Shown one piece after another: positions 7,916 to 63,965 of a stretch of DNA of 64,000 nucleotides. Source of the DNA: Arion vulgaris (lineage: Eukaryota; Mollusca; Gastropoda; Stylommatophora; Arionidae); assembly GCA_020796225.1 (NCBI GenBank), contig CM036755.1, forward strand, positions 85,879,803 through 85,943,802, given 5' to 3'. The notes under the pieces are model-generated. The model saw only the letters and a program-made list of their open reading frames with translations, was not told the DNA's origin and did not search any database. How positions within the stretch are numbered: the first letter of the stretch is position 1; the number at the start of each line of letters is the position of its first letter. A program made the position numbers and the translations under genes.

Positions 7916-8009
7916 GATGTCAAACGTTTGTCTTTAGAACCTTACATTTTACTGACGTCATGTTTATTTATATGTTATCTTCTCGTTTCTATGGCAACCT
8001 GATCTGTTG

Positions 8010-8228: not shown

Positions 8229-8379
8229 ACTAAACCTCATTACCAGATTGACTAGATCTCATCACACACTTTGTTTTCTCTTCAATACTAAATTACTCTC
8301 CCATAATCTGGATACAAATATCCCACTTCGTCTGATCATTATTTTGTGATCTGTTCTTCATGATTAATTTCACCCACAG

Positions 8380-8790: not shown

Positions 8791-9003
8791 CTCAGTCTCG
8801 TCGATGGGACACTACAATGCGACATTAGTCTCTTAATAATTAATCATACACAAGAAATTATATTAATGAAAGTACCTCATGGTTCTACTTTTCCTCTCAT
8901 TTCAATAGTTTACCATACCTCACTGTTTGACTTTTAATTTTGCTTATCTAGTCATACAATTATATTGTAAATTATCCAACAACTGTTATCATCTGTGACT
9001 TAC

Positions 9004-9030
9004 GTCCATGTTTGCTAGCGAACCAACGTT
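9004..9030 (-). CDS. Micro-exon 9 (RWFASKHG)
   Basis: A 27-nt exon with acceptor TATTTATTGTTGCAG and donor GTAAGTCACA. Phase 1 gives RWFASKHG. The joining codon from exon 8 is AAA (Lys). It is the last convincing unit before the left edge; the following 9 kb hold arrays and transposons but no clear further exon. Confidence 0.82.
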
Positions 9031-12000
9031 CTGCAACAATAAATATAGTTATAGGTATTATTCAAGCATTGAACGTTATTATGACTTAAGTCACATTTAA
9101 ACTTGTTGTATATGACTTTTGTATGTGACTAGGTACCACATACTCTATTTATATTGTTCTTTATATCTTTATCTCGTCGACAAAGCTTCTCCATATTGTT
9201 TACGTCTCTGTTTCTCTGTTGTCTTTGTTAACCCCGTTTAGGACATAGACCCAAAAATACACATGCAAACTTATGCTATATTTAGTTATCCAGCTCATAT
9301 CATCTTTTTTCTGTATATCTTTTACTTCTGCATTCAAATCTTTTATCTATTTATTTCTAGACTATTTTATCTCTCCTGGGGTTCCAGAAAAGAGCACATT
9401 TGTTAGAAATGTGTCCGGTGTTCTGAATTTTGTAGCTTCGAATCCGAACTGAATCACATGCGTACAATTTCCTGAATATTCCTGGAAGTATTAGGTAGCT
9501 ACGGAGTGTGTACATGGCGCTACAGTCTCGACAAGTGTTGTGTCATTTCTGACAAGATTGATGCAAGCAATATTGGAGAACTTGGAGCAAAGCAGACAAC
9601 TCATCTGAAATTCCTTGAACTGACTCTTGTTTGATATCACTCGGAATATCACAACTTGTGTTCTATTCAACAACAACGTCTTTTTTAAATCTTAGTTTTT
9701 ACTGAGATCTGCCGTTTTTCTCAACAACAAAACAGTCAGTTACAAGCCAGTAATTTTATATATCCAACCATGTTTCTCAACAACAAACAGTCAGTTAAGC
9801 AAGTCAGTAATTATATATATCCAGCCATGTTTTCTCAACAACAAAACAGTCAGTTAAGCAAGTCAGTAATTATATATATCCAACCATGTTTGCTCAACAA
9901 CAAAACAGTCAGTTAAGCAAGCCAGTAATTTTATATATCCAGCCATGTTTTCTCAACAACAAAACAGTCAGTTAAGCAAGTCAGTAATTATATATATCTA
10001 GCCACATTTTCTCAACAACAAAACAGTCAGTTAAGCAAGTCAGTAATTATATATCTAGCACATTTTCTCAACAACAAAACAGTCAGTTACAAGCCAGTAA
10101 TTTTATATATCAGCCACATTTCTCAACAACAAAACAGTCAGTTAAGCAACGTAAATATATATATCCAACCATGTTTTTCAACAACAAAACAGTCAGTTAA
10201 CAAGCCAGTAAATATATATCCAACCATGTTTTCTCAGAACAAAACAATCAGTTAAGCAAGTCAGTAATTATATATATCCAACCATGTTTGCTCAACAACA
10301 AAACAGTCAGTTAAGCAAGCCAGTAATTTTATATATCCAACCATGTTTTCTCAACAACAAAACAGTCAGTTAAGCAAGTCAGTAATTTTATATATCCAAA
10401 GCTTCCATCACTTAAACACACAATGTGATAGATAAATTAATTAAATGTAGGTCGTTACTTACTTCCTTCTGGTGTCTCTAGCCAATGTGCTGTGGAAATA
10501 AACAGACTCAAATATAACATTCAAGAGTTATCTGAAAAAGTTTGACTTATTAACACTTATAAACCTACTAGCAGTTTTACCCGTTCTTCACACGGAGAAT
10601 TTTGTTTAAATCTAGTTGCGAAGTTCCAAACTGTGCCGGATTGAGCATATTAAAGAAATATGCCACGTTGCCTCAAAATCGGCTTCTGTCAAATGTTAAA
10701 CAGTAGTTTTCTCTTCATGCTTGGTGCGAGAACTTTATGGGTTTACCACATACGTTTAAAATGTCCCACATTCGATTGCCAGTACAAACTTGATACAATA
10801 GAATTCCAGTCAAAATTGGCATATAACAATTTGCAAACTGAATTTATTTAGAGTCAGTTCTACCGTTGGAAATAACATTTATGTAGTTTTCATAATTTGA
10901 AACGATGTGGCTGACAATATCATTGCGAATACACATAGAAAAGTACGAGACTGTGCAAATTAAATAGGCATGCCCCATCCCCTGTCACTCGTATGACATC
11001 AAAACCGGCTGCTTTTCCATTCATAAAACTATAAAAAAACGGATCAAATGTTTAAAAATTAAATGTTTAAAAAAATGTCCTTCCTGTGAATTGAACATGG
11101 ATCTCCAGAATCTAATGGTCAAGAATCTAATGCACTCTGCCACCGGACAGACATGTTGAAAAACCAATAAATATATTAGTATTCGTGTGACTGCTGTGCG
11201 TATCACATGAACGGAAAGTAACAACATGACCACTGTGCGTATCACGTGACCGGAACGTTAAAACATGGATACACATATTCGGTGATTTCTGTACATGGCC
11301 ATTTGCGTTAAGTTGGAATATGGTTATAGAAACGAACAAATAGACCAGATTTACATTTCTTTTACTTCTTCCTATCTATGAAAGCTACCCTCTTGTCAAA
11401 TTTCAAGTCCCTAGGTCGTCCATATATCTTCAAACAATTAGGACAGACATACAATGTAATTCATGTATGTTTTATATATGTGTAGATTTATAACAAATAG
11501 ATACGCTTCCACTGCACTACAAATAAACTGATTTGTAGTTGTTTTCCCTGATCCTCCAATTCCAAATTAAAAAAGTAGTTCCGTTGTCTTTTAGCTAAAT
11601 TTGTTAATGGCACATGGTACTAATTTACACATATTTCACACATTTCGTATCTAGTACAGAGTAGCTTATAATATCAATTTATAAGATTAATTTTAAATCT
11701 ATGATAGATAAAAACAAACTATTCCTACTCTGAGCTGAAACTGAAAACGTCACTCCTGAAATCTACAATCAAGTGTTTGTAGTCGGCACGTTGTCAAAGA
11801 ATTTACTCGTATGTGTGATTTGTTTGAAGGGATGAGTTGAGAGATGAAGCCGAATTGGCTTTCAGTGTAAAAGCAAACAATGTGGTTATGAACAGTAGAA
11901 TTCTTACAAAATAACAATTTAAAAGCTAAAGAAGATGCTTTCTGGATTTCTATGAGGGAACAAATGTAATAATCTGTTATTCAGACTTTTTATTTCCACT

Positions 12001-15000
12001 AAATAGTATGGTTATCGTTAAGTCCGGAGGGGTAACTTGGGGCACTAGAAATGTACAACGAAGGCGATATGGCCCCTGCAGGTGCCGTGTTAGAGAATAC
12101 TGGTCTTGATTTGATATTGGTAATTTATGTAGATTATTCACGAAGAAGAGTCACCAACATCAGCATAAAAAGAAAGTTGGCACAGAACCTTGCTTGAATT
12201 ACATTGAGAAACAAAGAATGAAGTGGTTTGGTCACTTAATAAGAATGCATCCAAACTCCACAGTATACAGAGTCTTCTACAACAGAACATCAGGAACGAA
12301 CGCAAGAGGTAGACCACGGAAAAGATGATTAGATGTCATAGCATAATCTTGTCAAAGAGCAAAAATAACAATCACACAAACCACCAGAACAGCGCAAGAC
12401 AAAAACAGAAAATCACGACACTGGGCAATAACCTGGTAGCAGTGTGACGACAAGAGAAGAAGACGATTCATGAAGACAACCCTTTTTCTATTATTCACTT
12501 TTCAGTTTCTTTACATCTTGAAGCACATACAGGATTCTTTTCTTTCCTCCAATCCTGTTTTGCCTACCAGCACTAGTATAAGACGGAATGTCAAGAACGA
12601 GCACAATGAGGTTTTTTTTCAAGAACCCCAGAGGGAGCAACAGAAGTAACGAATATGATCAACAAATAAACAGGGTACATGTATTAAGAGCTTCCGAAAA
12701 AACAAATAGACAAACACGGGACTCGAACCACTTACATTAGTCCTACGACACAATCGCCTAGCCTAGCGTCTTTACGAGCGTCTTTACGAACACAACCAAT
12801 GAGTCATTCTATTAAAAAGGACTCAAGGGGGAGTGTCTTTCTCAAACGCTACGTTACAGCCAGACACAGGACAATCACGTAAGGTTCGATCGAACAGTGT
12901 TTGCACAGACACATGCTATAAGCTTATTGTGCTAGAAAGAACTCCCCCGTGAGTCATTTTTAATAGAGTGGCTCATTGATTGTGTTCGTAAAGACGCTCG
13001 TACTGCTAGGCTAGGCGATTGGTGTCGTAAGGACTAGGTAAGTGGTTCGAGTCCCGTGTTTGTCTATTTGTTTTTCAGAGCTCTTAATACCTGTACCCTG
13101 TTTATTTGTTGATCAATGTCCAGAACGAGATCTTGTGTGCGCCTTATAAGTAGTGTCTTACTTTGTTTCTGTTATCTCTGAGGCCCACCGTCTACGTGGC
13201 CACCCGTTTGCTTTGTATTCATTGTATCGGAGCAACATTGCTCTATTTGAGACGCACTGTCTGTTGGTAATTTGCTTATGTTTCCGAACCACTTAATTTG
13301 TTATTTCTTGATGAAGTTCAAAACTGATGTTGTACCCGCTTTCTTTCTGGCGTCTTCATTTCTCGACATGTCTCTTCTTGTTAGTCCCATCATTCTGCTC
13401 AGAGACCTTATCTCTGTCCTGACTAGTTTTCTTCTATCATTTCATCTCTGTCGTGACTAGTTTTCTTCTATAATTTCATCTCTGTCGTGTCTAGTTCTCT
13501 TCTATCATTTCATCTCTGTCGTGACTAGTTTTCTTCTATAATTTCATCTCTGTCGTGACTAGTTCTCTTCTATCATTTCATCTCTGTCGTGACTAGTTTT
13601 CTTCTATTATTTCATCTCTGTCGTGTCTAGTTCTATTCTATCATTTCATCTCTGTCGTGACTAGTTTTCTTCTATAATTTCATCTCTGTCGTGACTAGTT
13701 CTCTTCTATAATTTCATCTCTGTCGTGTCTAGTTTTCTTCTATAATTTCATCTCTGTCGTGACTAGTTTTCTTTTATCATTTCATCTCTGTCGTGACTAG
13801 TTTTCTTCTATCATTTCATGTCATCGTCCAGGTTTAGCACTCATAATTCTCAACTTGTAGATTGACTGTTCTAGTAACCTTCTAAAATTGTATGCGATTC
13901 TAAAATGGTAATTGTTCTTAAAGTTTAGATACAAAAAATCAAGTAAGTACATGGCTCAATAATTCTTCAATCTAACAAACACAATAAGAAGACAACAAAT
14001 TGAATATAGCAGATACTTACCTACACCAATAGTACCTGATAACCAATCATCTGTAAAGTAAAAAGAGTGAACAAGTTGTAATTTGAAAACTATCGATTCA
14101 GTATATATATATGGAACTGCAGTTAAACTATTTGATTGGCAAAACACGTAATTACAAAGTACTGTAGTTTTACAAATTACAAAAACAATGACAAAATACA
14201 GCAACGTTTCGACCAACAAGGCCTTTATCAAGCAAACGAACAAACAGGAGTGACAAATTAAAATGAAACACAAATGGACGACCAAATACAAACGTATCTA
14301 AGGAAAATCTGGAATAAAAACGAATAACGAAATAAATGTAACACAAAAACACACATAAAAACTAGAAATAGAAAGGAAAAGAAACAATGAAACATCTAGT
14401 AAATATATAACTTGAATACATTTCAACATATACCCATATAGATTACAAAGCATGGGAAGAGAAAGTACTAAGAAGCATAAGAATGTAATACGTTGAGCCC
14501 GCGTGGTCGCAAGGTACCATACAAAGAAATCAACCGATTCTCCAGAGCAAATCGACTGCGATCATCCGAGGAACATGATCGGATGGGTGTGACCTGGACA
14601 TCGTGAGCACCTTACGCGACATACGCCAATGCTCTGTGACCCTGTAGCCACCCATTTCAATGATACTGGCCATTTAGGAACAGTTCTATATCTACCATCT
14701 CTCTATCTAACTTACTGAAACAAATTAATGTTGAACAATTGCATTTTATATTGTATGTCTTGAATGTGAACATGGACATCAAACTGGAGGCTTTAAATAT
14801 ATATGGATATAATGATTGACCGATCAAATATCAATTCAATATTGTACTTTTATTTTACTAGGAGAAGGCGTGTACATGATTCACTAATAGCTGCATCCAA
14901 CACTAACCAGACTGCAAGAACTCAAGTTAATGATTAGCTGACAAGAACGCTATGCTGGCAGACAAAGAAGAATTGTAAACCAACAAAGAACCGGTGTCGT

Positions 15001-27000: not shown

Positions 27001-30000
27001 ATTTCATTTTGCAGATGATCAGGCAATCATATCAACAACAGAAGAACAGCTATAACAACACATTAACATAATCCAGTTAACATGTAATGAATACTATGTG
27101 GGAATAAACATCGACAAAACCGAAGTAATGACATTCACCAGAGAGAAAAACGCGACCAACATCTCCATCGACAATCCCCCAATAAAACAAGTATAAGACT
27201 TCATATACCTGGGGAGCATTTTTACTGCAAAGGGAAGAATAACTAATGAAATTCGACACAGATGCAACAAAGCAACTCAAATGATAAGAGAAATTGCGCC
27301 AATTTAAAAATGCAAACATGTCAACATGAACACAAAAAGAGCAATGTTCAACACTATCTTTTTCCCCACATTATGCTACTAGTGCCAAACCTGGTCACTG
27401 ACAACAAATGATAGAATGAAAACTAGTCACGACATAGATGAAGTGTTTACGCAGAATGATGCGTGTAACAAGAAGAGACCGGTTGAGAAATGAAGACATC
27501 AGGAAAAAGTGGATACAATATCGGTACTAAACTTCATCAAGAAACAACAAATTAAATGGTTCGGCCACGTAATCAGATTACCAACAGACAGTGCACCTCA
27601 AAGAGAAATACTGTTCCTATAAAATAGTTACAAAACAAAAGGCAGTCCACGCAAAAGATGGATCTTAGAGAATTAACAGAGGCGACGTAAGGCACTATCT
27701 ACGAAGCACACACAATGGCCCGTTTTAGAAATCTCTCTTGACCTGACGCTGTGAGGCAAAACATGATTGGAGAAAACAAAAACAAAACAAAGAAAAGAAC
27801 AAATGAGAAAACACAGTTTGGTGAAGTGAGAATGATGAAAATAGTTTTGGTAATTTTTACAAAACGGACGTCACTGCACTCAGGGCACACAGATAGGTGC
27901 TCAGCCTCCCGCAACAGATATCGAAGAGTATGCATACTGATGGGTCCCGTGTCTAAACACACTTCTCACTCTGCCCATCATACATTTGGCTGTACCTGCA
28001 CAGCGGATATCACCAAACTGCTTCAAACATGTGGATAGATTCAACATATGTTTTTGTATCTTCATCCAACAAGTAGTCGCAATCAGACTGAAGAACATCT
28101 CTCGTATCCATCTTCAACTGCACAAAATTAGATATTGTTGATGCAAGCCTGACCACTCTATGATTACCACAAAACACCTGCATGACCAGGACAGATCTAC
28201 ATAAGCCTCTGGAGGTTAGAAACGTCTATAGACGACATCCACTCATACCGAAACTTGCCCTTTGGATCTTGTAAAGCATCGACTGAGAGTCAGATATAAC
28301 AACTGCTCTAGTAAACGGAGTCACATAGATCAAATTGGGGGTGGGGGGATGGGATCATTACGTCCTCAAACTCCATCGCCACACTAGAAGTAATTGCCCT
28401 ATATTCTTCATGTCGCTATGCAACAACTCTAACATGCACAATAGCCAAGAAACTCCATATTAATTTTATTCAAAAACTGATACGACGATGATTTCAGTAT
28501 CATCTTCCAGTTTTTGGAACAATAATTTGCCAATCAATAATTCATTGAACAATCAATCGATGACACTTCTCAACAACATTTTTAAACAAACAACTATAAT
28601 AAACTAACTTGTGTAGTGCATGCGTTACTTACATCCTTCTGCAGTATGCGTCCATTTCTCTATTAAAAATACAACACAAATATATAAATATCATTAGACA
28701 ATCTAATATATGGATATATCATTGTTAATGAGTATCGACTGAACAGTATTCAATTATGACAAGTGATATTAGTTTTCTTCTGTATATTATATATGCAATG
28801 ATTTTTGAAGTTCAGAGTATATCTGACGAAATTGGGGATGTGTAGAGTATATGTGGATTGGTGTATGCTTTCTAGATCATATGTGGATGGATGTGTGTTG
28901 TGTAGACTATATGTGTATGAGATGCAACTTATATTTGAAAGGATGCTTGCTGTGTACACTATATATAGGGTTAAATGTGTGTTATGTAGATTACAAGTAG
29001 TTATATGTTTTTGTGTAGATGTATGGTGTATATTTATATATATATAGATATATTTCTTGCATATAACGATATACGTTTATTTTGTAGATTACATAAACTT
29101 GATCTGCACGTATTATGACGGAGTGCTATAGTGCAGTTTGAGAGGTACCTCCCAGCTTGGAACGAACATTCTGCAGATGATCTCATTGATTATTATTTTA
29201 GTAAGTATTTCTCCCCATCAACTCCATCTTTTATCAAACATTAAGACAAACATACAAGTAGACATTTCATATAAAAAATATCAACAACAAAGTGTAATCA
29301 TTATTCTGTAAATATTATTTCTATAATAAAGTTATACACTTACGATACTCTTCGCTATTAAACCAATGATCTGTAAATTACAAATAAAACAAATATATTT
29401 TATATTATAAATTTTAACAAATTATTATAAATAACTAGACATGTACATTTTCGTATTCTTTAAGCTGTAGCACATTACTTGTATATTGAATGTCTGTTCT
29501 CTTTCCATCTATCTTGCTCTTGTAGACTCAATCTCTTACATTCTTACACTGTAGGTATGTATCAACATGAGACGTCTTTAACTTGATATATGTTAGTGAA
29601 TCAAATTTGTATATTTCGTTCATGACATTATATCATTGTTTGTTCTGGTAATATTGAAACTTATAATCAATAGATTGTATTGTATTGTGTGGTTCATGAC
29701 TTTATATTTCTCTTTCTTTGAAATACAAACGTTAAATATTGACAATGTCTTTGATATTCTTGCATTATTCCAGAATGTCATGCATATTGTATGGTAAATA
29801 TGAAATGATGCTCCTTCTCCTGCTGGATTAATTCAGTTGACATAGTATCGCATGCTGACGCTTCTCCTTGTTCGTCAGTTTCGGAAATATGTAGATGATA
29901 AACGTACTACATCTAACATCTCCAGTTTCCACAGTCTCATATTTATTTGTGTGTTGTGTCTTCCTACATTTCTCTGTCATAATCATGTATCATGTCTAGT

Positions 30001-45000: not shown

Positions 45001-48000
45001 ACGTGTTTCGCATATTTTATTTAGACTTTTAAAAGATGATGTTGCTTTGCCAATTCGTATCATAATTTCTTTTTAACATTTCCTGTGCAATCAAAATTGC
45101 TACCCAAATAGGTGAACTGCTCTGTTATTTTTATCATATTAGATTCCAGTGTGATATCTGCATTACTTGCTATAGGTATCTTCATTATATTTGTTTTTCA
45201 TAGCTTATCTGCAGTCCAACTTTTGATGCTATAGATGACAAGTTGTCTGTTTTTCTTTGCATATCTTGGTTGTTTCTACTTAACAAGGCAATATCATCTG
45301 CAAAATCCAAATCTTCTAGTTGACTATTTTCTACCCAATCGATGCCAGTTTCGCCTCTGCAACATTTTCGCATAACCCAGTCAATGGCCACTCCAAACAA
45401 AAGCGGAGATAGAATACAATCTTGCTTTACTCCGGTTTCAGTTTCAGTTTGAAATATCTTCATTGCACTCCGGACATGTCCATAGGTGCTCCGATCTCCT
45501 TCGCAATATCTCCAACTGCGTCCAGCGACTGATCGTACCTGTTCGATTTTGATTGATGAGCCTACTCACGTACCTGTTATGCTGTTCTTTTCTTGTTACT
45601 CCAATCTTCAAACCGATCTCCTTCAATCTAGTAGTTGACGTGGATTGGTTTAAATTAAAAACTTCTTTGCGGCCACACTCTATGAGGGCGTTCAAAATAT
45701 CAGCTATATCCATTTGCTGGCCCTCTGATATGGTGACAGAGCCAGCCTTTGAAACAAAAGTTCCAGTTAGTTGTTTTAGTGTATTGTATAGCATTTTACT
45801 GTTTCCAGTCTTAGCTGCCTTTTCCCCTTCTTCAGCCAGTCGATTGAAATATGCTCTTTTATCTCTTCTAGCTGCTCTTTTCACTCCCTTGTCTTTTAGT
45901 CTATATTCTTCTTTAACTTGGATTTCATCTGTTGCATCCTTAGTATTAAATATTGCTAGTTTCATCTTTCTTCTTTCTTGAATATACTTCCAGGTGTCAT
46001 CAATTATCCAGGGTTTTCTGTCTTTCATCTTTAATCATGCGCTACTATTTGCTGCCCTCAATAGTTTGTCCTTTATCTTAGTCCATTTGTCTTCAATGTT
46101 CTGTTTATTTTCACCATTGAGTAACTCGAACCTATTAATAAGTTCGAGCTGATATTCCTCTTTACTTCTTTATTTTGTAGCCTTTGACTGTCTATTCGCA
46201 GTTGTTCTTTTTAGTATGGTGAATTTTCAATTTCAGTTTCAATTTACCTATGCATAAATTATGATCACTTCCTACATCCGCCCCTCTGTATGCATGAACA
46301 TCTAGTTATGATGTTCTAAATTGTGTATTTATGCACATATGGTCAATCTGATTCCTGGTCACTCCATCTGGTGAGTGCCAAGTAAATTTATGAATTTCCT
46401 TATGTGCAAAGATGGTACCTCCCATTACTAAGTTTGACAGCATACATAACTCCTCCAGTCTTTCTCCATTCTCATTCATTGTGTTTATTCCTTGTTTTCC
46501 TATAGCTCTCTCTACCCCTACATTATCACTTCCAACCTTGGCATTAAAGTCCCCATTACTAATAACAGGTCATGTTTTTGGGTCTTGTTAATTTGATCTT
46601 GTAGCTGCTCATAAAATGTGTCTTTCTTATCATCGACGGCCTCGTTTGATGGTGCAAACACTGAAGTATTGTCATATTGACATGCCTAGTACTGAAGTGG
46701 GCTCTGATTATCCGACTCGAGATGGGTTCCCATTCTAACATGCTATTTGCTACTCTAGGTGTCATCATTATAGCCAAACATTCAAAATGTTTACCGTCCT
46801 CTCTTCCTGAATATATGAAAGTTAATATACTAACTACTCTTCTATCTGTTCCAGGCCATCTCACATCACTTAACCCCAGTATGTCCAGTTCGTATCTCTT
46901 CATTTCTTCTGCAATTTGGTCTGATTTTGTAGCCGTGGCCATCGTTCTCACATTCCAAAATTCAATTTTAGTGTGTGTTTTTGAGCCAAGTAATGTACGA
47001 TTGCGGTTGCTGACTTTTGCAAAGCGGCTTTCATCGGCAACCGTCACATTGATGCACTAGGTGCACCGCACACTACCTGGCTGGTCGGTTTACCAGTATG
47101 GCGTCCTTTCTTGCATGTTTCTGTAGCTCTTTCAGTTTCTTGTGATGACGTAGCTGGCCAAACGCACAAGTCCTTCTCCTTTTTCATCCGGGCTTGGAAC
47201 CGGCATTTGCAGAGTTAGCATCATATGTATATATATAAATATATGTTATCTTCTGCATCAATGGTTTATGAATACTCTTAATTAGCACTTATATTTAAAA
47301 GTACATAAATGAATTTGCAAGAATTTCACTTATCTTCGTTTCGGGGCACATGGGTGTCGTTGGCAATGAGAGAGCAGACAGGTTGGTTGGCTCTGCCACC
47401 ATATCAGACGGCCAGCCAATGGATAGAGCTGATATTTTGAAAGCCCTCATAGAGTGGCGGGGAAGAAGATTTTAATTTAAACCAATCCACGTCAACTACT
47501 AGATTACAGGAGCTGGGTTTGAAGATTGGAGTAGCAAGAAAAGAACAGCATAACAGGTACGTGAGTAGGCTCATCAATCAAAATCAAACTGGTAGGGTCA
47601 GTCGCTGGACGCTGTTGGAGATATTGCAAAGGAGATCGAAGCACCTATGGACATGTCCAGAGTGCAATGAAGATATTCCAAACTGAAATGATTTTTAATT
47701 TCCTTGTTAAATGTCCTTGTTGAAATTAATACACGAACTATGAAAATATACACGCTCTTAGTATTGTGCTCTTTACTGTTCTATTAGTTTAATTCCATAG
47801 TAAACGGAACATTATTGAATATGATTTGTAACTTACTTCCTGGCTCGTTGTGTAGATACCATTCTGTAAAATAAAACAATACAATGTTTAAAAAAAATGT
47901 CTTTTGTCTGAATGTTTACATGACGAAACAATTAATCTTGTCTTGTTTCTTTATCTATCTTTTCTTTCTTCATTGTTGTTTCGTTGATATGTATGTTGTA

Positions 48001-51000: not shown

Positions 51001-54000
51001 CTAATTGTAAAAGCATATAATTCACGAATATAAGTAAGTATATAGAACGCTAATTGTAAGAGCATATAATTCACGAATATAAGTAAGTATGTTGAACGCT
51101 AATTGTAAGAGCATATAATTCACGAATATAAGTAAGTATGTTGTACGCTTATTGTGTGGATTTGATCATAAGTTTCTACTTATGGGGAGTGTTATTTGTC
51201 TTGACATGCCTTCTTCATTACTGCCCTGGTTAATACTAGCAATGTAATGGAAGCTATGACAAAATTAACGTGGTACAATAGGATATCTCTCAAGCAAATC
51301 CTCTATGCAGACAATATTGCAACCACTTCGTGTAGGCGCAAGTATGAACAACTTGGTTTTATCAATAACTAATGTACAAGCCACATAAAGCAGACCAATA
51401 GAAAAAACATGAATCTCGTCAATCAATTCCACCTACTTTGTTTTTGTATGAATGTCTCTGAGCTTTATTAATAGCCATTGGCAAACACACGTTGTAATTG
51501 GAAATGTCCGTCTCTTCTACAAGTTGTTTTCTAATTGATGTCCGATAAATCATCACAGAAATATACCAGCAGTTGTACGTGTATATGGAAGGTTTTTATC
51601 TTCTTGTTTGAGTGGTCATGTGGTGACCTTGTTCAGAGAAATTATTTTAGTTTTCCTATGCTTGATTTCACTTTGGTCGCATCAAGCGTCACGAAGGCCT
51701 GGAAAGAACAATACTAGAGGGCAGAGTCCCGGGACGCAGAGGCAGACCAAGAAGAAGATGGCTACAAGATATTTAAAAACCATGAATATGACAATCGGCG
51801 AGGTGGGTGAACTGGCTAGAGATAGAGTGAATTTCAGATGTGCTGCAAAGAGAGCAACTTCCTATAAAGGATACGCACCTTGATGATGATGATGATGCTT
51901 GATTTTAGACACAATCATCTGGTACAATCATCTGGTACAATCATCTGGTACAATCATCTGGTACAATCATCTAGTACAATCATCTGATACAATCATCTGG
52001 TACAATCATCTGGTACAATCATCTGGAACAATCATCTGGTACAATCATCTGGTACAATCATCTAGTACAATCATCTGGTACAATCATCTGGCAGAATCAT
52101 CTGTCACAATCATCAAGCTGTATTAAGGCGGCGTCATTTATTCATGGATATCTGTATGTGTGTTATATAGAAGTGTAGAGCCATCATCACAATTAATATC
52201 TTCCATGGAGAATGTGAGAGTCCATTTGATAGCTCTTGCATTATCATCAGTTGTTTCACGTATCAAACCAAGCTTTGTCTATGTTGAATAGTAGGGATGA
52301 CATTACACATTGTTGTCACTCACCTGTTTTAACTTCATATTTCAGTTCGGAACTAGCTACATTACATGTGAATTAACTGTAGCAACGTGTCTTGAAGCTT
52401 TATAAAATATAGTGCGACATCTCAATATATGAGGAGCATAAGAGATCCTTCTCCTCCCGCACCATATATATATATACTAGGACAAGAATACAAGTTGGAT
52501 GCAATAGTTTTTACTTACGTCCTTCTCTTGATAATAAAAATGCCACTGTAATATACAAAATAATATTGGAATTATTCACTGAATGGATGTATTTATTGAT
52601 GATCATCAACATTACTGATTGTATTTCTTGTTTCTCCTGTTGCACAGACTATTTCTAAAATAGAAGTTATTAAAAACCAAAAAATACGACTAAGTCTATT
52701 ATTTCATGACTCTATTGCAAGTATCAACATTCGCCCCAATGTATGAGCTGGGATAATACGCTTTTGAAAAAGACTTGTCATCAAACGTCATGTTGGTGCG
52801 TTAACTGTAAAACTAAAATTTCGCTCCAGACTCGCCAAATATGCCGCCAACATAAAAGAAAACCATTATATTACAAAATTTAGGTCTCCTATAGCAATTT
52901 TTTCCATCAGACATTTGCGTCGGTTTAATTCTAAGATTGGGTTCACAGTTTCGCTACTGTAGAAATGATGGTTTTGCTGCAATTTGCATTGGACTGTAGG
53001 CATGAGTTGTTGTACTGACTGTAAATATCCACAACAAATCATGCCACGATATAAAAAGAAAAATGTTAGAGAGTTTCACGACAAACTATATTAAATATTT
53101 ATCAACAGATAATTGACTGTATAACCATCTAATATCGATGTCAACAGGGTTGCATATTACAAGGAAGGATTCATAAAAACAATTTGGATTAGAGTTTCAA
53201 CAGAGAATTGGATATTAAAAAGTATTTTTGATTTTTTTCCATCCAGAAGCACTTGAGCTTTCAGCTTTTCGGCTCGCTGCCTTGGACATCGTAACCCTTC
53301 GGTTCGGTGACACGCAAACCGTAAATCTGGAGCAACTGTGACTTTTCTGCCTGCCCACGGAATTAAACCGCACTCACAGGGGGCTTGTCACCAGTCTACC
53401 AATGCGCTACGAACACGCTGGGCTGGCGGACAAACATTTTTGTTCAAGACACCGTTACTGCTTGTAATACCGTTTTTTCGGCCTGTGTAGGGGCGGGGAG
53501 AGGAGGGGGAGAGGGGAGAGGGGGAGGTGAGCCTGAGAATTTAAGTGTCGCATTGCTTTAATCTTGTTATGCCCCCGACTTTAAAAATATCCTGGCCTTA
53601 CCGAGGATTGAATACGGGACTTCCGCATAACATCCTGGTTTGTTTTAATGTTAAATAGCTGCACGTTTAACATATCATTATTAGTTTCCATTTAGGTAAC
53701 TTTGTCTTTCAGCCTCCTGTGGGGCATATGCTCTATCGTATTATTTTGTTCTGAGCAACTGCTTCATTTACATCTGTATCCTCTTTGTAGCTATTTATAT
53801 CTCAGTTCCCTCTCCAACACAGTATACACCATGTGGATATTTAATATAATATTGTAGTCTATTTTCTATTCTCTTTCAACGGCTGGATAATGGAATTGGA
53901 TGTCCACTCTTGTCGTTAAGTGTAGGGGTGGTAGCTTTAATTAGTGTTCCAGTGCTATATGAGTCACACATGTTGGATTATATCTGTGTTTAATTAGTGT

Positions 54001-63000: not shown

Positions 63001-63965
63001 GTTCCAGGGCTATATGAGTCACCTGTGTTGTGTTTTATCTGTGTTTAATTAGTGTTCCAGGGCTATATGAGTCACATGTGTTGTGTTATATCTGTATTTA
63101 ATTAGTGTGGTCACGATATTATCTTTCCATCTTTTTTTCGTAGTCTTTCCTTGGCTCTAGTATCTGATTTGTAAACATTTTATGATGTTATTATTGTATG
63201 CTGTTATTGGTGGTTGGTTGTATTCCATTTTCATTAATTGTCCAAACTACTGCATTTATTGTCTTTCAATGTATTCGTTGCATGAAGTTGCGCAGACTCT
63301 GCATCTGGTGTCCTCGTTTCGTTGTCTATCTTTCCTGGTGATTTAGCCTTCCTCAAGCATTTCATTTCACACATGGTGTGCTTTCTGTGGTGTGTTGCTG
63401 TCAGAGACCAAGTTTGGCACTGGTAACAAAGTGTTGGTAGAAACATACTTGTTATCATCTGTTTTTTCACTTCCATCTTGATATTTGTGTGTTGTAGTAA
63501 TGGTGCCAGCTGGTAGATTACTGAATTTCCTTTTGTCATCTTGTCTCTATCTAGTTTTCCGTCCTCTGTGAATATATTAGAAACGGTAAACAATGTAATC
63601 CAACATAATATAACGAATGCCGAATGGTGTGGAAGGGTACGATAACGTAGTGGTTCTTATGAGTTCATTAGAAAGATTTAAAAAATAAAATTCCAACAAA
63701 ATATTTTCACCATCTTCTAAATGAAATCGGGAACACTTGCAGGTGTTACATAATTCGTGCACTGTCGCTGAGATCTTCAAGTGTAAGAAGGAAATCATAG
63801 CCCACATGGTTACTCACTCAAATGCATTGATGGTACTATAAATCAATCAATTAATCAAGCATTCCCATTTATTGAAAGTTTCTAGAATGAAAGAAACTAT
63901 GTGATAAGTAAACTAATTGAATATAATACATTACTTACATCCATCGTGGGAAGTAAGCCATTTTT
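9004..63965 (-). CDS. Tandem micro-exon gene, partial (nine exons in window)
   Basis: Seen: nine segments of 27 nt (one of 30 nt), each bounded on the minus strand by a T-rich ...AG acceptor and a GTAAGT-type donor. All begin with 2 nt and end with 1 nt of split codons (phase 1-1). In transcription order they lie at 63939-63965, 52519-52545, 47837-47863, 38985-39011, 29344-29370, 28633-28659, 14021-14050, 10463-10489 and 9004-9030. The joined reading has no stop over 82 codons. Phase 0 meets stops in exons 4, 7 and 8; phase 2 meets stops in exons 4, 5 and 7. The nine peptides are alignable: an aromatic residue at the second full codon in all nine and Gly at the eighth in most. Junction codons give L, Q, K, D, Q, Y, A, K. 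Introns range from 684 to 14,582 bp. No start, stop, signal peptide or known domain is in the window, so both ends lie outside. Every exon is a symmetric multiple of three, so any could be skipped without a frameshift. The layout resembles the micro-exon genes (MEGs) known from schistosomes, but homology is not claimed and function is unknown. Confidence 0.85.
9385..9690 (+). mobile_element. SINE-like element
   Basis: TAGCTTCGAATCCGAACTGA resembles a tRNA B box (GGTTCGANTCC) plus flank. It is shared with 24,770-24,790, followed in both by an ACATG..CAATTT segment and then AGCTACGGAGT.GTG. The 3' part has drifted. Confidence 0.5.
9715..10400. repeat. 58-60-bp minisatellite, about 11 copies
   Basis: Units contain CTCAACAACAAAACAGTCAG and CAGTAATTATATATATCCAA. 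Several copies lack one to four bases. Confidence 0.95.
10463..10489 (-). CDS. Micro-exon 8 (HWLETPEG)
   Basis: A 27-nt exon with acceptor TGTTTATTTCCACAG and donor GTAAGTAACG. Phase 1 gives HWLETPEG, a near-consensus copy. Phase 0 contains TAG. The 58-60-bp array at 9,715-10,400 lies in the intron just downstream. Confidence 0.85.
10490..12100. other. Intronic sequence, mostly unassigned
   Basis: Between exon 8 and the LINE scrap at 12,110 only a tRNA-like SINE segment (11,075-11,165) is recognised. Short frames at 10,660-10,851 and 11,021-11,339 have no recognisable product. Confidence 0.4.
11075..11165 (-). mobile_element. tRNA-derived SINE fragment
   Basis: On the minus strand GGTGGCAGAGTGCATTAGAT resembles an A box and ATCCATGTTCAATTCACAGG a B box, about 45 nt apart as in tRNA-derived promoters. 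It is too diverged for a functional tRNA. Confidence 0.5.
12110..12480 (+). mobile_element. LINE C-terminal fragment
   Basis: Frame gives HQHKKKVGTEPCLNYIEKQ, then RMKWFGHLIRMHPNSTVYRV and GTNARGRPRKR, a typical C-terminal tail of non-LTR retrotransposons. It is followed by GACGACAAGAGAAGAAGACG as the 3' tail. The same sequence is found inverted at 19,609-19,900. Confidence 0.8.
12656..13115. mobile_element. Palindromic foldback element with tRNA-like arms
   Basis: Left arm 12,656-12,840 and right arm 12,936-13,115 are inverted copies at about 90% identity, both bounded by TGATCAACAAATAAACAGGG. The loop is about 95 bp. Each arm contains GTGGTTCGAGTCCCGTGTTT (B-box-like), and the right arm also has GTGGCTCATTGATTG (A-box-like). 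It could be two SINEs in inverted orientation or a foldback DNA transposon. Confidence 0.8.
13140..13440 (-). mobile_element. LINE C-terminal fragment
   Basis: Minus-strand text includes MMGLTRRDMSRNEDARKKAG and LNFIKKQQIKWFGNISKLPT, then DSASQ. It matches plus-strand sequence at about 27,470-27,600 (FIKKQQIKWFGHVIRLPTDS), so it is the same LINE family as the 17,850-27,720 element. Confidence 0.8.
13425..13825. repeat. 34-bp minisatellite seeded by LINE sequence
   Basis: About 12 copies of a unit containing TCATCTCTGTCGTGACTAGT and TTTCTTCTAT. On the minus strand it reads AAAACTAGTCACGACAGAGA. The LINE at 27,418-27,447 has AAAACTAGTCACGACATAGA at the matching place next to its C-terminal tail. 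Confidence 0.85.
14021..14050 (-). CDS. Micro-exon 7, 30 nt (DWLSGTIGV)
   Basis: A 30-nt exon, one codon longer than the others. The acceptor is CTTTTTACTTTACAG and the donor GTAAGTATCT. Phase 1 gives DWLSGTIGV, with the last G completing GCA (Ala) with exon 8. An alternative donor six bases upstream (GTAGGT) would give a 24-nt exon in the same phase. Stops close phases 0 and 2. Confidence 0.8.
   Translation of the reverse strand: MIGYQVLLV
14100..14690 (-). mobile_element. Penelope-like element 3' part with internal inversion
   Basis: The minus strand carries the Penelope 3' end: RSCSSDDRSRFALENRLISL-like GIY-YIG tail, then AATTTGTCACTCCTGTTTGT and TTGATAAAGGCCTTGTTGGT. At about 14,605 orientation flips: 14,608-14,680 is plus-strand sequence (GATACTGGCCATTTAGGA) matching 44,475-44,545. 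Confidence 0.8.
14860..15620 (+). mobile_element. RNase H-LINE 3' end
   Basis: Plus-strand scraps such as PPSMDILRRDRSEHLWTNLF are the C-terminal tail of an RNase H LINE. The following 3' UTR (15,290-15,600) is shared with 3,540-4,040. No intact frame. Confidence 0.65.
15690..16660 (-). mobile_element. RNase H-bearing LINE, 3' part (best copy)
   Basis: A 215-codon frame (16,013-16,660) contains a non-LTR RNase H domain: VNTDGSVQRGEKSGWGFLAN (first catalytic Asp in TDGS), MRMEVEAVTAALHWISG (catalytic Glu), VVSDSQSMLHKIQKGRFRY (Asp in SDS). After a frameshift near 16,010, YCPGHAGVYGNVRPDRLEST holds the usual NERAD box as NVRPD. The next frame (15,698-15,967) ends in CLRGRVRGVFNQRSTG and ISMHTLRYMMGETEHL. 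The frameshift and N/E/R changes make it a pseudogene. Confidence 0.88.
16661..17205. other. Spacer with a short direct duplication
   Basis: A segment containing GAATTCTGAAGTCACTGGGA and AAGCTGACAGTGGTATAAT occurs twice (about 16,945-17,000 and 17,015-17,065). No recognised gene. Confidence 0.5.
17210..17845 (+). mobile_element. Penelope-like element, 3' part
   Basis: Starts with GATGTCCAGGTCACAGCCAT (GIY-YIG domain end, decayed) and runs through GCTTGATAAAGGCCTTGTTG to TTTGTGATTACGTGTTTTG. It is preceded at 17,262-17,296 by an inverted scrap of the same 3' terminus (TTGATTGGCAAAACACG), also seen at 14,118-14,153. Penelope elements commonly carry such inverted terminal pieces. Confidence 0.75.
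18278..19041 (+). mobile_element. Internally deleted BovB-like RTE element with TSD
   Basis: The insert (18,291-19,028) begins with an RTE 5' leader (GGTTCCAAGCCCTGATGAAA) and jumps to the C-terminus: NVVSILTYVIESWKMTKDIE, ENRCLRKIMNIKWNEFRRSD, then RGRPKETL after frameshifts. It ends in an (ATT)n tail. It is flanked by ATGACCTAATTAT (18,278-18,290) and ATGACCTGATTAT (19,029-19,041), a 13-bp target-site duplication with one mismatch. Confidence 0.88.
19300..19420 (+). mobile_element. RNase H-LINE 3' terminal scrap
   Basis: TGTISMHTLRYLLGDWHLW matches the C-terminal end of the RNase H LINE family seen at 3,360-3,430 and 15,700. It sits inside the endonuclease half of the host LINE and interrupts its frame. 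Confidence 0.75.
22440..24390 (-). mobile_element. Penelope-like element (reverse transcriptase end plus GIY-YIG)
   Basis: The minus strand reads reverse-transcriptase C-terminal scraps (VNFLDIIVSISVSS, TTVFYKTTDSHSYLLYTC, LRLRRLCYDDNDFRHNAHEM, TKLVLTFHPHNAPTLRILLR). A GIY-YIG nuclease domain follows: NLIYAILSKRCRIAYVMETC, then VRLADRFSQHLRDIS, with GIY seen as IYA and YIG as YVM. The Arg and His of RFSQHL are kept. The 3' end holds TTTGATAAAGATCTACGACC then GAAACGTTG, a hammerhead-like motif. The element is G-rich and GC-richer than its host. Confidence 0.85.
24700..24925 (+). mobile_element. tRNA-derived SINE
   Basis: GGGGTTTCGAATCCGGACCG is a good B-box match, with tRNA-like sequence before it (from GGTCTCAATTGAGAAG). 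The tail CATCTCTATCGATAGGTGTA to CCGGTGCAATG matches the tandem units at 7,691-7,915. It lies inside the hAT shell. Confidence 0.65.
25441..27720 (+). mobile_element. LINE 3' part (reverse transcriptase), continuation of 17,850-19,608
   Basis: Plus-strand text: WNDELQLAVKQKKMQLYNIG, KIQAWQDYGETLHSDYKSST, then after the 74-bp array VNMVLSNKTPGPDNIPVDLI, YRGITLQSQTGKIIGKVLEK, QMGFRKNRSCIDAIFALRQL, RQCCVLSPLLFI-like and FHFADDQAIIS (F-ADD catalytic box). C-terminal FIKKQQIKWFGHVIRLPTDS and GSPRKRWI follow. Several stops and frameshifts. WWN at 19,608 joins DELQ here once the antisense insertion is removed. Confidence 0.88.
25780..26300. repeat. 74-bp minisatellite inside LINE coding sequence
   Basis: Seven copies of a unit containing GAACACACAGTAAACGTCAC and GAACCAAGCATAGCACTATC. 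The last copy runs in frame into the LINE (SEVEPSIALSEIRNAVNMVL), so the unit is element coding sequence. 74 is not divisible by three, so the amplification destroyed the frame. Confidence 0.93.
27870..28450 (-). mobile_element. RNase H-LINE 3' fragment, decayed
   Basis: The minus strand shows PISMHTLRYLLREAEHLSVC and PECSDVRF, KCMMGRVRSVFRHGT and, upstream, sequence matching the SDSQSML region at 16,080. The same family as 15,690-16,660, with more stops. Confidence 0.75.
28633..28659 (-). CDS. Micro-exon 6 (KWTHTAEG)
   Basis: A 27-nt exon with acceptor TGTATTTTTAATAG and donor GTAAGTAACG. Phase 1 gives KWTHTAEG, close to exon 8 (HWLETPEG). Exons 6 and 8 also share the first ten donor-side bases, GTAAGTAACG. 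Confidence 0.85.
29344..29370 (-). CDS. Micro-exon 5 (HWFNSEEY)
   Basis: A 27-nt exon with acceptor TTTATTTGTAATTTACAG and donor GTAAGTGTAT. Phase 1 gives HWFNSEEY, ending in Tyr instead of Gly. The codon to exon 6 is CAG (Gln). It is followed by the shortest intron seen, 684 bp, which lacks a large array. Confidence 0.82.
29371..30040. other. AT-rich intronic spacer
   Basis: No gene, RNA or transposon recognised upstream of exon 5 (in transcription order) before the 36-bp array begins. Confidence 0.4.
30040..36565. repeat. 36-bp minisatellite with a degenerate core
   Basis: Unit TTCCCCAACTTCTACCTTAC then ATAAGAATGTCATTGA. Copies are regular at 34,900-36,550, looser at 30,040-31,130, and barely recognisable at 31,130-33,240, where only scraps such as GTCATTGATTC remain. 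Both strands have long open frames (NVIDSPTSTLHK on plus, MTFLCKVEVGES on minus) because 36 is divisible by three. These are not genes. Confidence 0.95.
33245..34245. other. GC-rich non-repeat island within the 36-bp array
   Basis: About 1 kb near 50% GC, unlike its AT-rich surroundings. It contains GCCCCAGCCGCTCGGGGGCT and GATGGATGGATGAAATAGTG. Frames of 77-97 codons exist on both strands but none is recognised. The abrupt right edge (CCCCAACTTCTACCTT resumes at 34,246) suggests an inserted element; its identity is unknown. Confidence 0.5.
36692..37722. repeat. 86-bp minisatellite from a LINE C-terminus, with CRE sites
   Basis: Twelve copies of a unit containing CTTGTGTCATACCTGCCGGC and TATCAGTTCTGACGTCATT. 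On the minus strand it reads TSELITCSNQRE and MIAYAGRYDT, continuing the LINE tail at 37,723-38,110. Nearly every unit has the palindrome TGACGTCA. CG-rich CCGGCG recurs. Confidence 0.93.
37723..38110 (-). mobile_element. LINE C-terminal fragment
   Basis: Minus-strand text LLYGCESWIINKQSIDNYKP, then decayed IRSATKTHRTLSNE and ILRRGG, then HLINTGNIKGRIDRGRQREK and MLDNLTPWFDT. This is a typical tail of non-LTR elements. It leads directly into the 86-bp array. Confidence 0.8.
38305..38496 (-). CDS. Small open frame, 63 residues, hydrophobic C-terminus
   Basis: Begins with ATG in AAAATGGCGGACAG, a good animal start context, and ends in TGA. The protein starts MADSGYEEQTQSAVCSLYCG, is rich in Cys, and ends with a hydrophobic stretch FCVAILATVICILCGACC that could be a membrane segment. 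It lies in the intron downstream of exon 4 on the same strand. Family not recognised. It could be a real single-exon micropeptide, a first exon, or transposon sequence. Confidence 0.3.
   Translation of the reverse strand: MADSGYEEQTQSAVCSLYCGCRKLDFVVIVVPFDKNCSSSDEQFCVAILATVICILCGACCFL
38985..39011 (-). CDS. Micro-exon 4 (EFSASLGD)
   Basis: A 27-nt exon with acceptor TATTTATTTTACAG and donor GTAAGGAAGA. Phase 1 gives EFSASLGD. This is one of the most diverged units: Phe in the aromatic slot, and Gly shifted one place left. Phases 0 and 2 both contain stops, so only the shared phase can be coding. Confidence 0.75.
39100..39689 (+). pseudogene. Decayed LINE RNase H fragment
   Basis: The plus frame at 39,411-39,689 reads ISINGSVIRHVQSRVCSFTA, TTYNLTLSNMVVTKPMVWLE and THAFFLTD-like HAFFLTDLMNIV. 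It is alignable with LINE RNase H (TDGSV, MEVMAVT, LTDSMNML) but with the first Asp and the Glu replaced. The preceding 39,100-39,340 has no recognised frame. Confidence 0.65.
40020..40635. repeat. 42-bp minisatellite, about 14 copies
   Basis: Unit GCAGTACTACATTTCGGCTA, TGCTAGTTCCTAACGTGTTC, TT. Open in plus frame (QYYISAMLVPNVFL). The left copies have indels, the right copies are nearly identical. Confidence 0.95.
40690..41085. repeat. 74-bp tandem repeat, about 5 copies
   Basis: Units contain CACTTTAGTTTTCTGTCAAC and CTACCTTGATCGGCATCATA. Each has the short inverted pair TGTCAAC...GTTGA. No coding. Confidence 0.92.
41310..42352. repeat. 54-bp minisatellite, about 19 copies
   Basis: Unit TTTTATTAACATGTTTACTG, AACTTATTTTGAAATTTTAG, AAGTTTACTTTTTG. 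A 176-codon minus frame (KTKSKLLKFQNMFSKHVN repeats) is a by-product of the unit. Followed by a (GT)n run at 42,363-42,386. Confidence 0.95.
42390..43140. other. Intronic spacer
   Basis: No recognised gene. 42,770-42,960 has coding-like composition but no clear frame. An (AT)n run sits at 43,045-43,063. Confidence 0.35.
43661..45010 (+). mobile_element. Penelope-like element inserted in the RTE
   Basis: Plus-strand text: TFLTSLSLSAYPPS / VNFLDITITI, SVYYKPTDAHSFFFIPLPIP, FHPHSSLVKTVLFRHLSILQ, then FAQHLRDIRQ-like and RSCSSDDRSRFALENRLISL of GIY-YIG. The 3' end is GCTTGATAAAGGCCTTGTTG and GTCGAAACGTTGCTG. Target duplication CATATTTTATT lies at 43,649-43,659 and 45,011-45,021; removing the insert restores RTE sequence as seen at 18,505-18,535. 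Confidence 0.9.
45444..46028 (-). pseudogene. In-frame RTE / RNase H-LINE chimeric frame
   Basis: A 194-codon frame whose first about 110 codons are RTE linker (up to LYNTLKQLTGTFVSKAG) and whose rest is the C-terminal tail of an RNase H LINE: DIADILNALIECGRKEVFNL, KIGVTRKEQHNRYVSRLINQ, ILRRRSEHLWTCPECNEDI. The second part is found alone at 47,400-47,690. The fusion keeps the frame, though no function is implied. Confidence 0.8.
47335..47695 (+). mobile_element. RNase H-LINE C-terminal fragment
   Basis: SGHMGVVGNERADRLVGSAT retains the NERAD box of RNase H, then QPMDRADILKALIEWRG. After a frameshift, KIGVARKEQHNRYVSRLINQ and LEILQRRSKHLWTCPECNED. It ends shortly before exon 3. Confidence 0.85.
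47837..47863 (-). CDS. Micro-exon 3 (WYLHNEPG)
   Basis: A 27-nt exon with acceptor TTGTTTTATTTTACAG and donor GTAAGTTACA. Phase 1 gives WYLHNEPG. Tyr occupies the aromatic position, with an extra Trp before it. The start of its downstream intron resembles that of exon 1 (both contain ATATTCAAT after the donor), suggesting exon plus flank were duplicated together. Confidence 0.82.
48245..50350. repeat. 59-bp minisatellite, about 36 copies
   Basis: Unit TGTCTGAACAATGTCAGCTT, ACAATATTTCACTACTGTCA, CAAGTGATTCATGTTGGCC, with GCTTCCTGTTGG as a frequent variant. On the minus strand each unit has CACTTGTGACAG followed 12 nt later by GTAAGC, a splice-like arrangement. Plus-strand frames through it are repeat by-products. 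Confidence 0.95.
50570..51165. repeat. 49-bp tandem repeat, about 12 copies
   Basis: Unit GTATGTTGTACGCTAATTGT, AAGAGCATATAATTCACGAA, TATAAGTAA. It is preceded by CTAGCAGATGTATTCGTTCG TTGCATGGGAA, which resembles Helitron-type ends, and followed by the helicase remnant. Confidence 0.93.
51166..51541 (-). mobile_element. Helitron (Pif1-like helicase) remnant
   Basis: The minus strand reads SIRKQLVEETDISNYNVCLP then MAINKAQRHSYKNKVGGI, alignable with the helicase C-terminus of Helitrons (FAMTINKSQGQ-type motif VI region). Decayed DSCFFYWSALCGLYISY and a TCAYTKWLQ-like end follow. No full domain remains. Confidence 0.6.
51690..51895 (+). mobile_element. LINE 3' end with (TGA)n tail
   Basis: Text RVPGRRGRPRRRWLQDI, then in another frame TIGEVGELARDRVNFRCAAK and RATSYKGYAP before a stop. 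The last residues are typical of RTE/CR1-type C-termini, and TGATGATGATGATG follows as a microsatellite tail. Confidence 0.75.
51905..52120. repeat. 13-bp tandem repeat, about 16 copies
   Basis: Unit ACAATCATCTGGT. It begins directly after the (TGA)n LINE tail. Open in one plus frame (39-bp super-period) without coding meaning. Confidence 0.95.
52255..52350 (-). mobile_element. LINE reverse-transcriptase palm scrap
   Basis: The minus strand reads EVKTGE, QQCVMSSLLFNID, matching the TGVRQGCVMSPLLFN motif of RTE-like reverse transcriptases. Very short. Confidence 0.5.
52519..52545 (-). CDS. Micro-exon 2 (AFLLSREG)
   Basis: A 27-nt exon with acceptor TTTTGTATATTACAG and donor GTAAGTAAAA. Phase 1 gives AFLLSREG, with Phe in the aromatic position and the terminal EG shared with exons 6 and 8. 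The codon joining it to exon 3 is CAA (Gln). The preceding intron of 11.4 kb is mostly the 53-bp satellite. Confidence 0.82.
52546..53260. other. Intronic spacer
   Basis: AT-rich, no recognised gene or repeat between exon 2 and the SINE-like segment. Confidence 0.4.
53262..53435 (-). mobile_element. tRNA-derived SINE
   Basis: The minus strand has GTTCGTAGCGCATTGGTAGA (A-box-like) and GTGAGTGCGGTTTAATTCCG (B-box-like), about 45 nt apart, followed by a unique body ending in AGCGAGCCGAAAAGC. Good SINE head structure, not a working tRNA. Confidence 0.65.
53490..53527 (+). other. G-rich tract, G-quadruplex capable
   Basis: Six runs of three to five G within 38 bp (GGGGCGGGG...GGGGG...GGGG...GGGGG). 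Stands out in AT-rich surroundings. Confidence 0.7.
53570..53665 (-). mobile_element. Second tRNA-like SINE scrap
   Basis: The minus strand GAAGTCCCGTATTCAATCCT has a B-box-like core, with GGATGTTATGCGG upstream. Weak. Confidence 0.35.
53940..63105. repeat. 53-bp satellite array, about 170 copies, each with TGAGTCA
   Basis: Unit GTTATATCTGTGTTTAATTA, GTGTTCCAGTGCTATATGAG, TCACCTGTGTTGT. Two main variants differ at the end (CCTGTGTTGTG and CCCATGTTGGG). Nearly every unit carries ATGAGTCACC. Degenerate patches with many single-base losses occur at 55,890-55,940, 56,300-56,400, 57,040-57,110 and 62,640-62,830. This is the largest array in the window and makes up most of the intron between exons 1 and 2. 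Confidence 0.98.
63110..63625 (-). mobile_element. LINE C-terminal fragment
   Basis: The minus strand reads IFTEDGKLDRDKMTKGNSVI, YQLAPLLQHTNIKMEVKKQM, ITSMFLPTLCYQCQTWSLTA and MCEMKCLRKA, then frameshifted IERQ..FGQLMKME. Same broad family as the antisense LINE at 19,609-25,437 (YQLAPLL, LPTLCYQxQTW). It abuts the 53-bp array. Confidence 0.85.
63939..63965 (-). CDS. Micro-exon 1 (KWLTSHDG)
   Basis: A 27-nt exon read on the minus strand. The acceptor is a T-rich tract ending TTTATTTTGACAG and the donor is GTAAGTAATG. In phase 1 it gives KWLTSHDG, with the last base T completing a Leu codon with exon 2. It is the most upstream unit visible; only 35 bp of the window lie beyond it, so earlier exons are probably outside. 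Confidence 0.85.

Follow-up and report, generated by a model that had tools for sequence, protein, structure and literature searches.

Clustered arrays of predicted 27-nucleotide micro-exons encoding nine-residue repeats in Arion vulgaris

Introduction

Can segments of 27 or 30 nt, scattered over about 55 kb of one DNA strand, be the exons of a gene, and if so, of what kind of gene? The question is raised by a 64-kb stretch of the Arion vulgaris genome, here called the window (C3:85879803-85943802, in a contig C3 of 91 Mb; the assembly is 1.52 Gb in 3227 contigs). The original prediction read the nine minus-strand segments in it as a gene of symmetric phase 1 micro-exons with an aromatic nine-residue repeat. 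The analysis described here indicates that the repeat exons are almost certainly real and form a gene family. The preferred reading, with a probability of about 0.82, is a clustered family of micro-exon genes: arrays of 27-nt (some 30-nt) phase 1-1 exons encoding nine-residue units.

The window is dense in minisatellites, many of which have units of 28-86 bp; the largest has a 53-bp unit and covers 9 kb. An example from the tandem-repeat listing is:

Window 53936-63108: minisatellite stretch

A Pfam search found reverse-transcriptase and RNase H fragments in the window as well, and together with the minisatellites these fit introns such as a large animal-like genome would have. The window gave no match to Rfam at the gathering threshold and no tRNA in a tRNA scan. 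One minus-strand open frame of RNase H transposon type (window 16013-16714) matches an unnamed database protein at 94% identity across 64% of the frame; its best named animal match is from the land snail Bradybaena similaris (41%). A search of viral contigs for a relative of the window's reverse transcriptase turned up seven stretches that fit the pattern, none of which was confirmed.

Results and discussion

Nine micro-exons in the window

A broad scan of both strands for AG-N20-39-GTRAG recovered the nine segments among many minisatellite matches. Splice sites were scored with a matrix of generic frequencies, not fitted to the A. vulgaris genome. The repeat micro-exons from the splice-site and frame scan are, in minus-strand order:

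Window 63939..63965, minus: KWLTSHDG, 27 nt, phase 1-1; first of the window's nine, seventh among the 15 found for the gene
Window 52519..52545, minus: AFLLSREG, 27 nt
Window 47837..47863, minus: WYLHNEPG, 27 nt
Window 38985..39011, minus: EFSASLGD, 27 nt, GTAAGG donor; weakest member
Window 29344..29370, minus: HWFNSEEY, 27 nt
Window 28633..28659, minus: KWTHTAEG, 27 nt
Window 14021..14050, minus: DWLSGTIGV, 30 nt
Window 10463..10489, minus: HWLETPEG, 27 nt
Window 9004..9030, minus: RWFASKHG, 27 nt; 3'-most found

Eight are thus 27 nt long and one 30 nt, and together they make up 246 nt, or 82 codons, in 54,962 bp, which agrees with the 82 codons over about 55 kb given at the outset; the introns between them would be 684-14,582 nt. 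The frame test likewise agrees that phase 1 is the only phase open across all nine. Under a rule close to that of the original prediction (GTAAG donor, length 24, 27, 30 or 33 nt, acceptor score of at least 2), the minus strand of the window yields nine candidates and its plus strand none. Phase 1 is free of stops in every one of them, and their second codon specifies W, F or Y in every case and W in six. The random-sequence control that had been named as a possible refutation gave a mean of 0.02 and a maximum of 1 candidate in 300 dinucleotide-preserving shuffles of the window, against nine in the real sequence. The claim of a common acceptor, donor, length and phase holds.

The set also emerges from less directed scans. 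When splice sites alone were considered (lengths 12-60, score at least 6), 27-nt segments accounted for 8 of 21 minus-strand matches versus 0 of 21 on the plus strand, and in a free-length splice scan of the window the top three and five of the top six matches are members of the set, the fourth being a shorter reading of exon 14021. Each exon was also scored against a peptide profile of the other eight, with random open 24-mers for comparison. Eight of them outscored the random peptides (P from 0.00025 to 0.0102), whereas exon 38985-39011 (EFSASLGD) did not (P = 0.16). A profile that tolerates weaker splice sites found no tenth member in the window.

A longer minus-strand gene and a convergent array

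Extension of the phase 1 exon search into flanking DNA had been proposed as a check. The flank searched was 240 kb (a further 10 kb was added later), with a profile built solely from the nine window exons. At a score of 10 or more it found 14 new exons on the two strands; 50 shuffles of the 240-kb flank, searched on both strands with the same profile, gave a mean of 0.1 and a maximum of 1. E-values from DNA profile searches that took in the training exons were not counted as evidence. Six of the 14 continue the minus-strand gene upstream of the window (profile and splice scan; positions on the window scale):

73620, minus: HMWIGSTDA, 30 nt
108223, minus: SWLKSTGG
114115, minus: MWLQHPGG
120520, minus: DWLYDYEG
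130313, minus: AWLETKTG
139669, minus: IWLLGKYG

The minus-strand gene therefore has at least 15 repeat exons (nine in the window and these six) at C3:85888806-86019497, spanning 131 kb. The estimate of "at least nine" is borne out as a lower bound, and nine is the window's share alone. In the 44 kb further upstream no more exons were counted, the only other matches there being those of a tandem array that scores below 10. This is a long minus-strand array at C3:86026877-86035648, whose units mostly spell HMFAGRTEG, flanked by weak splice-like sites. HMFAGRTEG-like units, which have weak donors and all score below 10, make up 53 of the 72 profile matches and were excluded from the exon counts; their weak scores most likely arise by chance.

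To the left of the minus-strand gene lies a convergent plus-strand array of about nine exons (profile score at least 10 unless given):

C3:85792811, plus: GWLNTERA
C3:85793429, plus: QWLGGAGG
C3:85799447, plus: IWLKTPQG
C3:85804441, plus: RWLFTSYA, score 7.7, not among the 14
C3:85806409, plus: KWLLEHPGG, 30 nt
C3:85813114, plus: SFLATEDG
C3:85815914, plus: MWLDEEGG
C3:85835488, plus: IWLHTPEG
C3:85847369, plus: AWKEAKDK, poor fit to the repeat

The two neighbouring arrays have 24 exons, 21 of them 27 nt and three 30 nt long; W occupies residue 2 in 19, L residue 3 in 18 and G residue 8 in 17. Two members fit the repeat poorly (EFSASLGD at 38985 and AWKEAKDK at 85847369). The in-frame amino-acid similarity of the 21 27-nt exons exceeds that in all 300 column shuffles and is far above that in the other frames. 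A scan of 284 kb that required just TGG as the second codon, an open frame and fair splice sites, and that accepted any length from 18 to 180 nt in steps of three, gave 21 candidates, of which 20 are 27 or 30 nt; the remaining one (48 nt) has its acceptor in common with exon 86000322. One of the 21 is outside the 24-exon list:

C3:85816171-85816200, plus: AWFDDMLPS, 30 nt

As a control, 22,377 bases of unrelated loci in the same genome were searched with a 21-exon profile, and one match was obtained with a score of 9.4 (IFISEPDG, weak donor) and none above it; matches below about 10 are therefore unsafe by themselves.

Two further segments lie close to the arrays. Between exons 86019471 and 86010115 on the minus strand, C3:86017421-86017499 is a DWLQEDDEE... 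segment with a family-like acceptor and the donor GTAAGTAA; its 79 nt are not divisible by three, and it may be a repeat exon that has gained an insertion. The other, C3:85791289-85791318 (plus strand), lies a short way upstream of the plus array. It is a 30-nt KRQTYPDLP segment that has very strong splice sites but lacks the WL pattern, and it may be another kind of exon belonging to the plus-array gene.

A genome-wide exon signature

The assembly was then searched with a strict pattern (CAG, five bases, TGG-YT, thirteen bases, GGA, one base, GTAAG), which leaves five codons free. There are 49 exact matches in 1.52 Gb, versus one for the pattern written backwards, and 45 of the 49 lie within 6.7 Mb of C3 (79.33-86.01 Mb), where they are grouped by orientation:

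C3 79.33-79.51 Mb, plus: 10 matches
C3 83.58-83.75 Mb, plus: 5 matches
C3 83.79-83.93 Mb, minus: 11 matches
C3 85.45-85.47 Mb, plus: 4 matches
C3 85.61-85.63 Mb, plus: 3 matches
C3 85.70 Mb, minus: 1 match
C3 85.756-85.758 Mb, plus: 2 matches, copies in an inverted duplicate (see below)
C3 85.82-85.84 Mb, plus: 2 matches
C3 85.89-86.01 Mb, minus: 7 matches

One of the four matches outside this region (on contig C2898) is identical to a C3 exon. A scan of viral contigs with an exon pattern gave one match (L001), which lies inside an ordinary bacterial-type open frame and was taken as chance.

Phase 1 is open in 48 of the 49 matches, the exception with a stop being C3:85612623; the null expectation is 13.7 broken, with a minimum of 5 in 2000 draws, and the other two frames are broken in 31 and 22 of the 49. 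The matches comprise 46 distinct sequences, and their free positions lean toward S or T at residue 5 (23 of 49) and E or D at residue 7 (22 of 49). A separate piece of 20 kb was taken from the 83.79-Mb array; in it, all four pattern matches have good acceptors and GTAAGT donors, neither of which the pattern fully required, and no other match of score 6 or more is present there on either strand. The strict pattern recovers just 9 of the 24 exons of the two neighbouring arrays (two more of the 49 are the copies in the inverted duplicate), and thus C3 may be estimated to hold about 120 repeat exons.

At the level of sequence, then, the exons, their common phase, their splice sites, their amino-acid pattern and their clustering on one contig are firm. 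The reading as a symmetric phase 1 micro-exon gene with an aromatic nine-residue repeat gains strong support from the flank prediction and the genome-wide scan. That there is a gene here is upheld; its description as a single gene was an understatement, as several such arrays are clustered together and this is one of them.

Exon joining and the question of isoforms

Each exon would encode one unit of the form x-W-[LF]-x-[ST]-x-[ED]-G together with a junction residue split between exons, and the exons are presumably spliced together in order. Single exons could then be skipped, gained or lost in frame, with altered repeat length and sequence as the outcome. The original prediction went further and held that the frame survives the skipping of any exon, giving up to 512 isoforms. 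This is an overstatement: 381 of the 511 non-empty subsets of the nine window exons are open, a stop codon arises when the exons are joined in any of five ordered pairs, and skipping exon 52519-52545 alone makes a TAA at the new junction. The final base is T in exons 63939 and 28633, and a T followed by AA or AG forms a stop. For the 15-exon minus-strand gene 24,447 of 32,767 subsets are open, and for the plus array all 511 of 511. The eight consecutive junctions in the window are all open, and since 28% of random orders are open too, this is not decisive.

Whether exon skipping makes isoforms in life stands at about even odds. The strongest alternative is that all exons are always spliced in; the symmetric phase would then simply result from repeated exon duplication, and the protein would be a structural repeat of fixed form. 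This alternative falls only a little short of an even chance. Duplication of an exon with its flanking intron would by itself yield equal phase, the splice sites are mostly strong, and the stop made by skipping exon 52519, with 130 of the 511 subsets broken, means that free skipping is not fully protected. On the other side, a last base T, which makes stops with the usual AA, AG and GA starts, occurs in only 2 of the 49 pattern exons even though these start mostly with AA or GA, and the fully open plus array suits skipping; a scarcity of T would suit free joining, and common descent may explain both observations. The most far-reaching version of the preferred reading is an independently evolved, chromosome-scale micro-exon system outside the flatworms, in which some 100 or more nine-residue exon cassettes, interchangeable and arranged in about nine groups, with most joins open, would make combinatorial repeat proteins through skipping and through rapid gain, loss and inversion of arrays; this is doubtful, although not far-fetched.

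The predicted repeat product

Joined in order, the exons of the minus-strand gene would give IWLLGKYG-E-AWLETKTG-Q-DWLYDYEG-N-MWLQHPGG-R-SWLKSTGG-R-HMWIGSTDA-K-, followed by KWLTSHDG-L-AFLLSREG-Q-WYLHNEPG-K-EFSASLGD-D-HWFNSEEY-Q- and then by KWTHTAEG-Y-DWLSGTIGV-A-HWLETPEG-K-RWFASKHG. The protein read from the spliced message would be a tandem repeat in which tryptophan recurs roughly once in nine residues. Cysteine is absent from the 24 repeat units of the two neighbouring arrays and from the 49 pattern matches. A protein search with the joined nine-exon repeat gave no candidate with three shared words, a tripled joined query gave 6464 candidates with none at E ≤ 10, a Pfam search with the window repeat found no family, and among solved structures there was none at E ≤ 1 (best E = 1.5).

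By analogy, the product is somewhat more probably secreted than not; it may be a secreted or extracellular, fast-evolving protein, and a guess at its function would be a secreted repeat protein with a structural, adhesive or defence/interaction role, in which repeat number and variety outweigh exact sequence. A scan of the flanks for the first exon, the stop codon and the polyadenylation site of the minus-strand gene, terminal exons having been suggested as a further check, gave several candidates for these ends, none of which stands out. Among the several candidates for a signal-peptide first exon is C3:86042001-86042091 (minus strand; MFNMLVFFFLFVCVQCQHNELRS...), which ends in phase 1 and lies 22.5 kb upstream of the first repeat exon. 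Hydrophobic open frames just 5' of repeat exons were attributed to translation of the T-rich acceptor.

A precursor of many small peptides, one per micro-exon and released at basic junction residues after glycine, would be another way to read such a product, and it has some appeal for the plus array, where six of eight junction residues are K or R and five of these six follow G. The corresponding figure in the minus-strand gene is only 5 of 14, dibasic pairs are occasional and not regular, and the signal-peptide scan fixed no signal peptide, all of which makes such a precursor improbable.

Duplication, inversion and loss of exons

The first 50 nt past the donor hexamer were compared among the 24 exons (276 pairs). 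The downstream intron flanks are alike in 25 pairs, versus 2 of 276 when shuffled, the clearest pair being 63939 and 10463; therefore the copying, an ancient one, took in the exon along with the edge of its intron. An earlier test of the window exons alone had found flanks alike at P < 0.05 in 10 of 36 pairs downstream and 6 of 28 upstream, with a control that retained a few repeat copies. The 3' part of the minus-strand gene also has an inverted copy nearby:

Window 4095..14098 (minus), copied at C3:85751855-85760772: about 84-95% identity in the larger blocks, with unmatched stretches between them

Sequence supports a recent date for this segmental duplication. In the duplicate, exon 9004 is identical (C3:85757548-85757574, plus) and exon 10463 differs by one base, its first (C3:85756322-85756348, plus); at the position that corresponds to exon 14021, neither the tryptophan codon nor the donor remains, and the acceptor has changed. 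Exons can therefore drop out of these micro-exon genes, and because all are phase 1-1, such a loss keeps the frame unless the new junction codon is a stop. The family would thus appear, with support from the sequence, to have grown by the copying of exons with their flanking introns and by recent inverted segmental duplication. Separately, a 27-nt EWLKSDIG exon recurs at C3:79468330, 83583070 and 83745428 (plus strand), in arrays 4 Mb apart, with at most its last base different, which is read as recent long-range duplication or conversion.

The stop in one of the 49 matches, the loss of exon 14021 and the 79-nt DWL segment suggest that some arrays may be decaying. If these are taken together with the irregular repeats, all of the arrays might be relics, pseudogene remains of a once-working gene carried along by duplication. 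Neutral drift should have broken more than one of the 49, given five free codons and 46 distinct sequences, and splice sites are good in all four matches of the separate array, so this is very improbable. Chance alignment or a repeat artefact, which a minisatellite-rich window with its many AG...GTAAG matches might have produced, is rejected, because the nine exons all lie outside the listed minisatellite arrays, 46 of the 49 pattern matches are distinct, and the controls speak against it (9 versus 0.02 in window shuffles, 14 versus 0.1 in flank shuffles, 49 versus 1 for the backwards pattern and 48 of 49 open against the frame null).

Relation to known micro-exon systems

Micro-exon genes have been counted by the presence of at least four consecutive exons shorter than 70 nt and divisible by three, in genes with at least seven exons of which micro-exons are at least half, as set out in PMC7653826. 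The minus-strand gene has 15 such exons of 27 or 30 nt on one strand (consecutive as predicted), and at least 15 predicted micro-exons count toward the seven. Judged by its predicted architecture, it falls under the term micro-exon gene as applied to schistosomes and tapeworms. The schistosome parallel drawn originally is apt in this respect; as to sequence kinship, the joined nine found no homologue in two protein searches or in Pfam. Schistosome and tapeworm genes of this type have, in the accounts cited, long consecutive runs of symmetric micro-exons with lengths divisible by three, and S. mansoni antigen 10-3 (MEG-4) has 27-bp exons (PMC7653826, PMC4015677). They differ in that here 21 of the 24 exons are 27 nt and nearly all carry the same xWL....G unit, the introns reach 14.6 kb in the window, and the pattern matches are gathered within 6.7 Mb.

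The bicycle and megacycle genes of aphids, as described in PMC9168663, have many similar small internal exons, nearly all of which start from codon position 2. In megacycle the micro-exons number over 100 (one species has 118 exons within about 100 kb), and the gene expanded through internal duplication; the megacycle repeats, without an obvious CYC motif, are about two CYC motifs long and span several exons (PMC9168663). The arrays described here are like these in that exons start at codon position 2 (9 of 9 in the window, 48 of 49 genome-wide), and like megacycle in growth by internal duplication. Bicycle genes have paired CYC motifs, whereas the present units have no cysteine, a difference with no bearing on megacycle; in megacycle several exons make up a repeat, whereas here one exon is one repeat.

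Elastin-type and collagen-type genes also have small symmetric exons, with exon-by-exon growth of a repeat protein and constant intron phase. The present arrays resemble them in the last two features and differ in that the unit is unrelated and the exons are mostly smaller and kilobases apart. A literature search of limited depth recognised no such family outside flatworms and aphids.

Gene finders easily overlook micro-exon genes, each exon being shorter than most alignment seeds; this family is detectable because exon length, phase, splice sites and the nine-residue pattern agree. Its presence suggests that clustered micro-exon genes may be commoner than the record from parasitic flatworms and aphids implies. 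A simple exon signature has been gained, with 49 matches in 1.52 Gb versus one backwards, and the recent inverted duplicate lets the loss of one exon be seen directly; with these two in hand, exon turnover and its consequences for the protein become testable.
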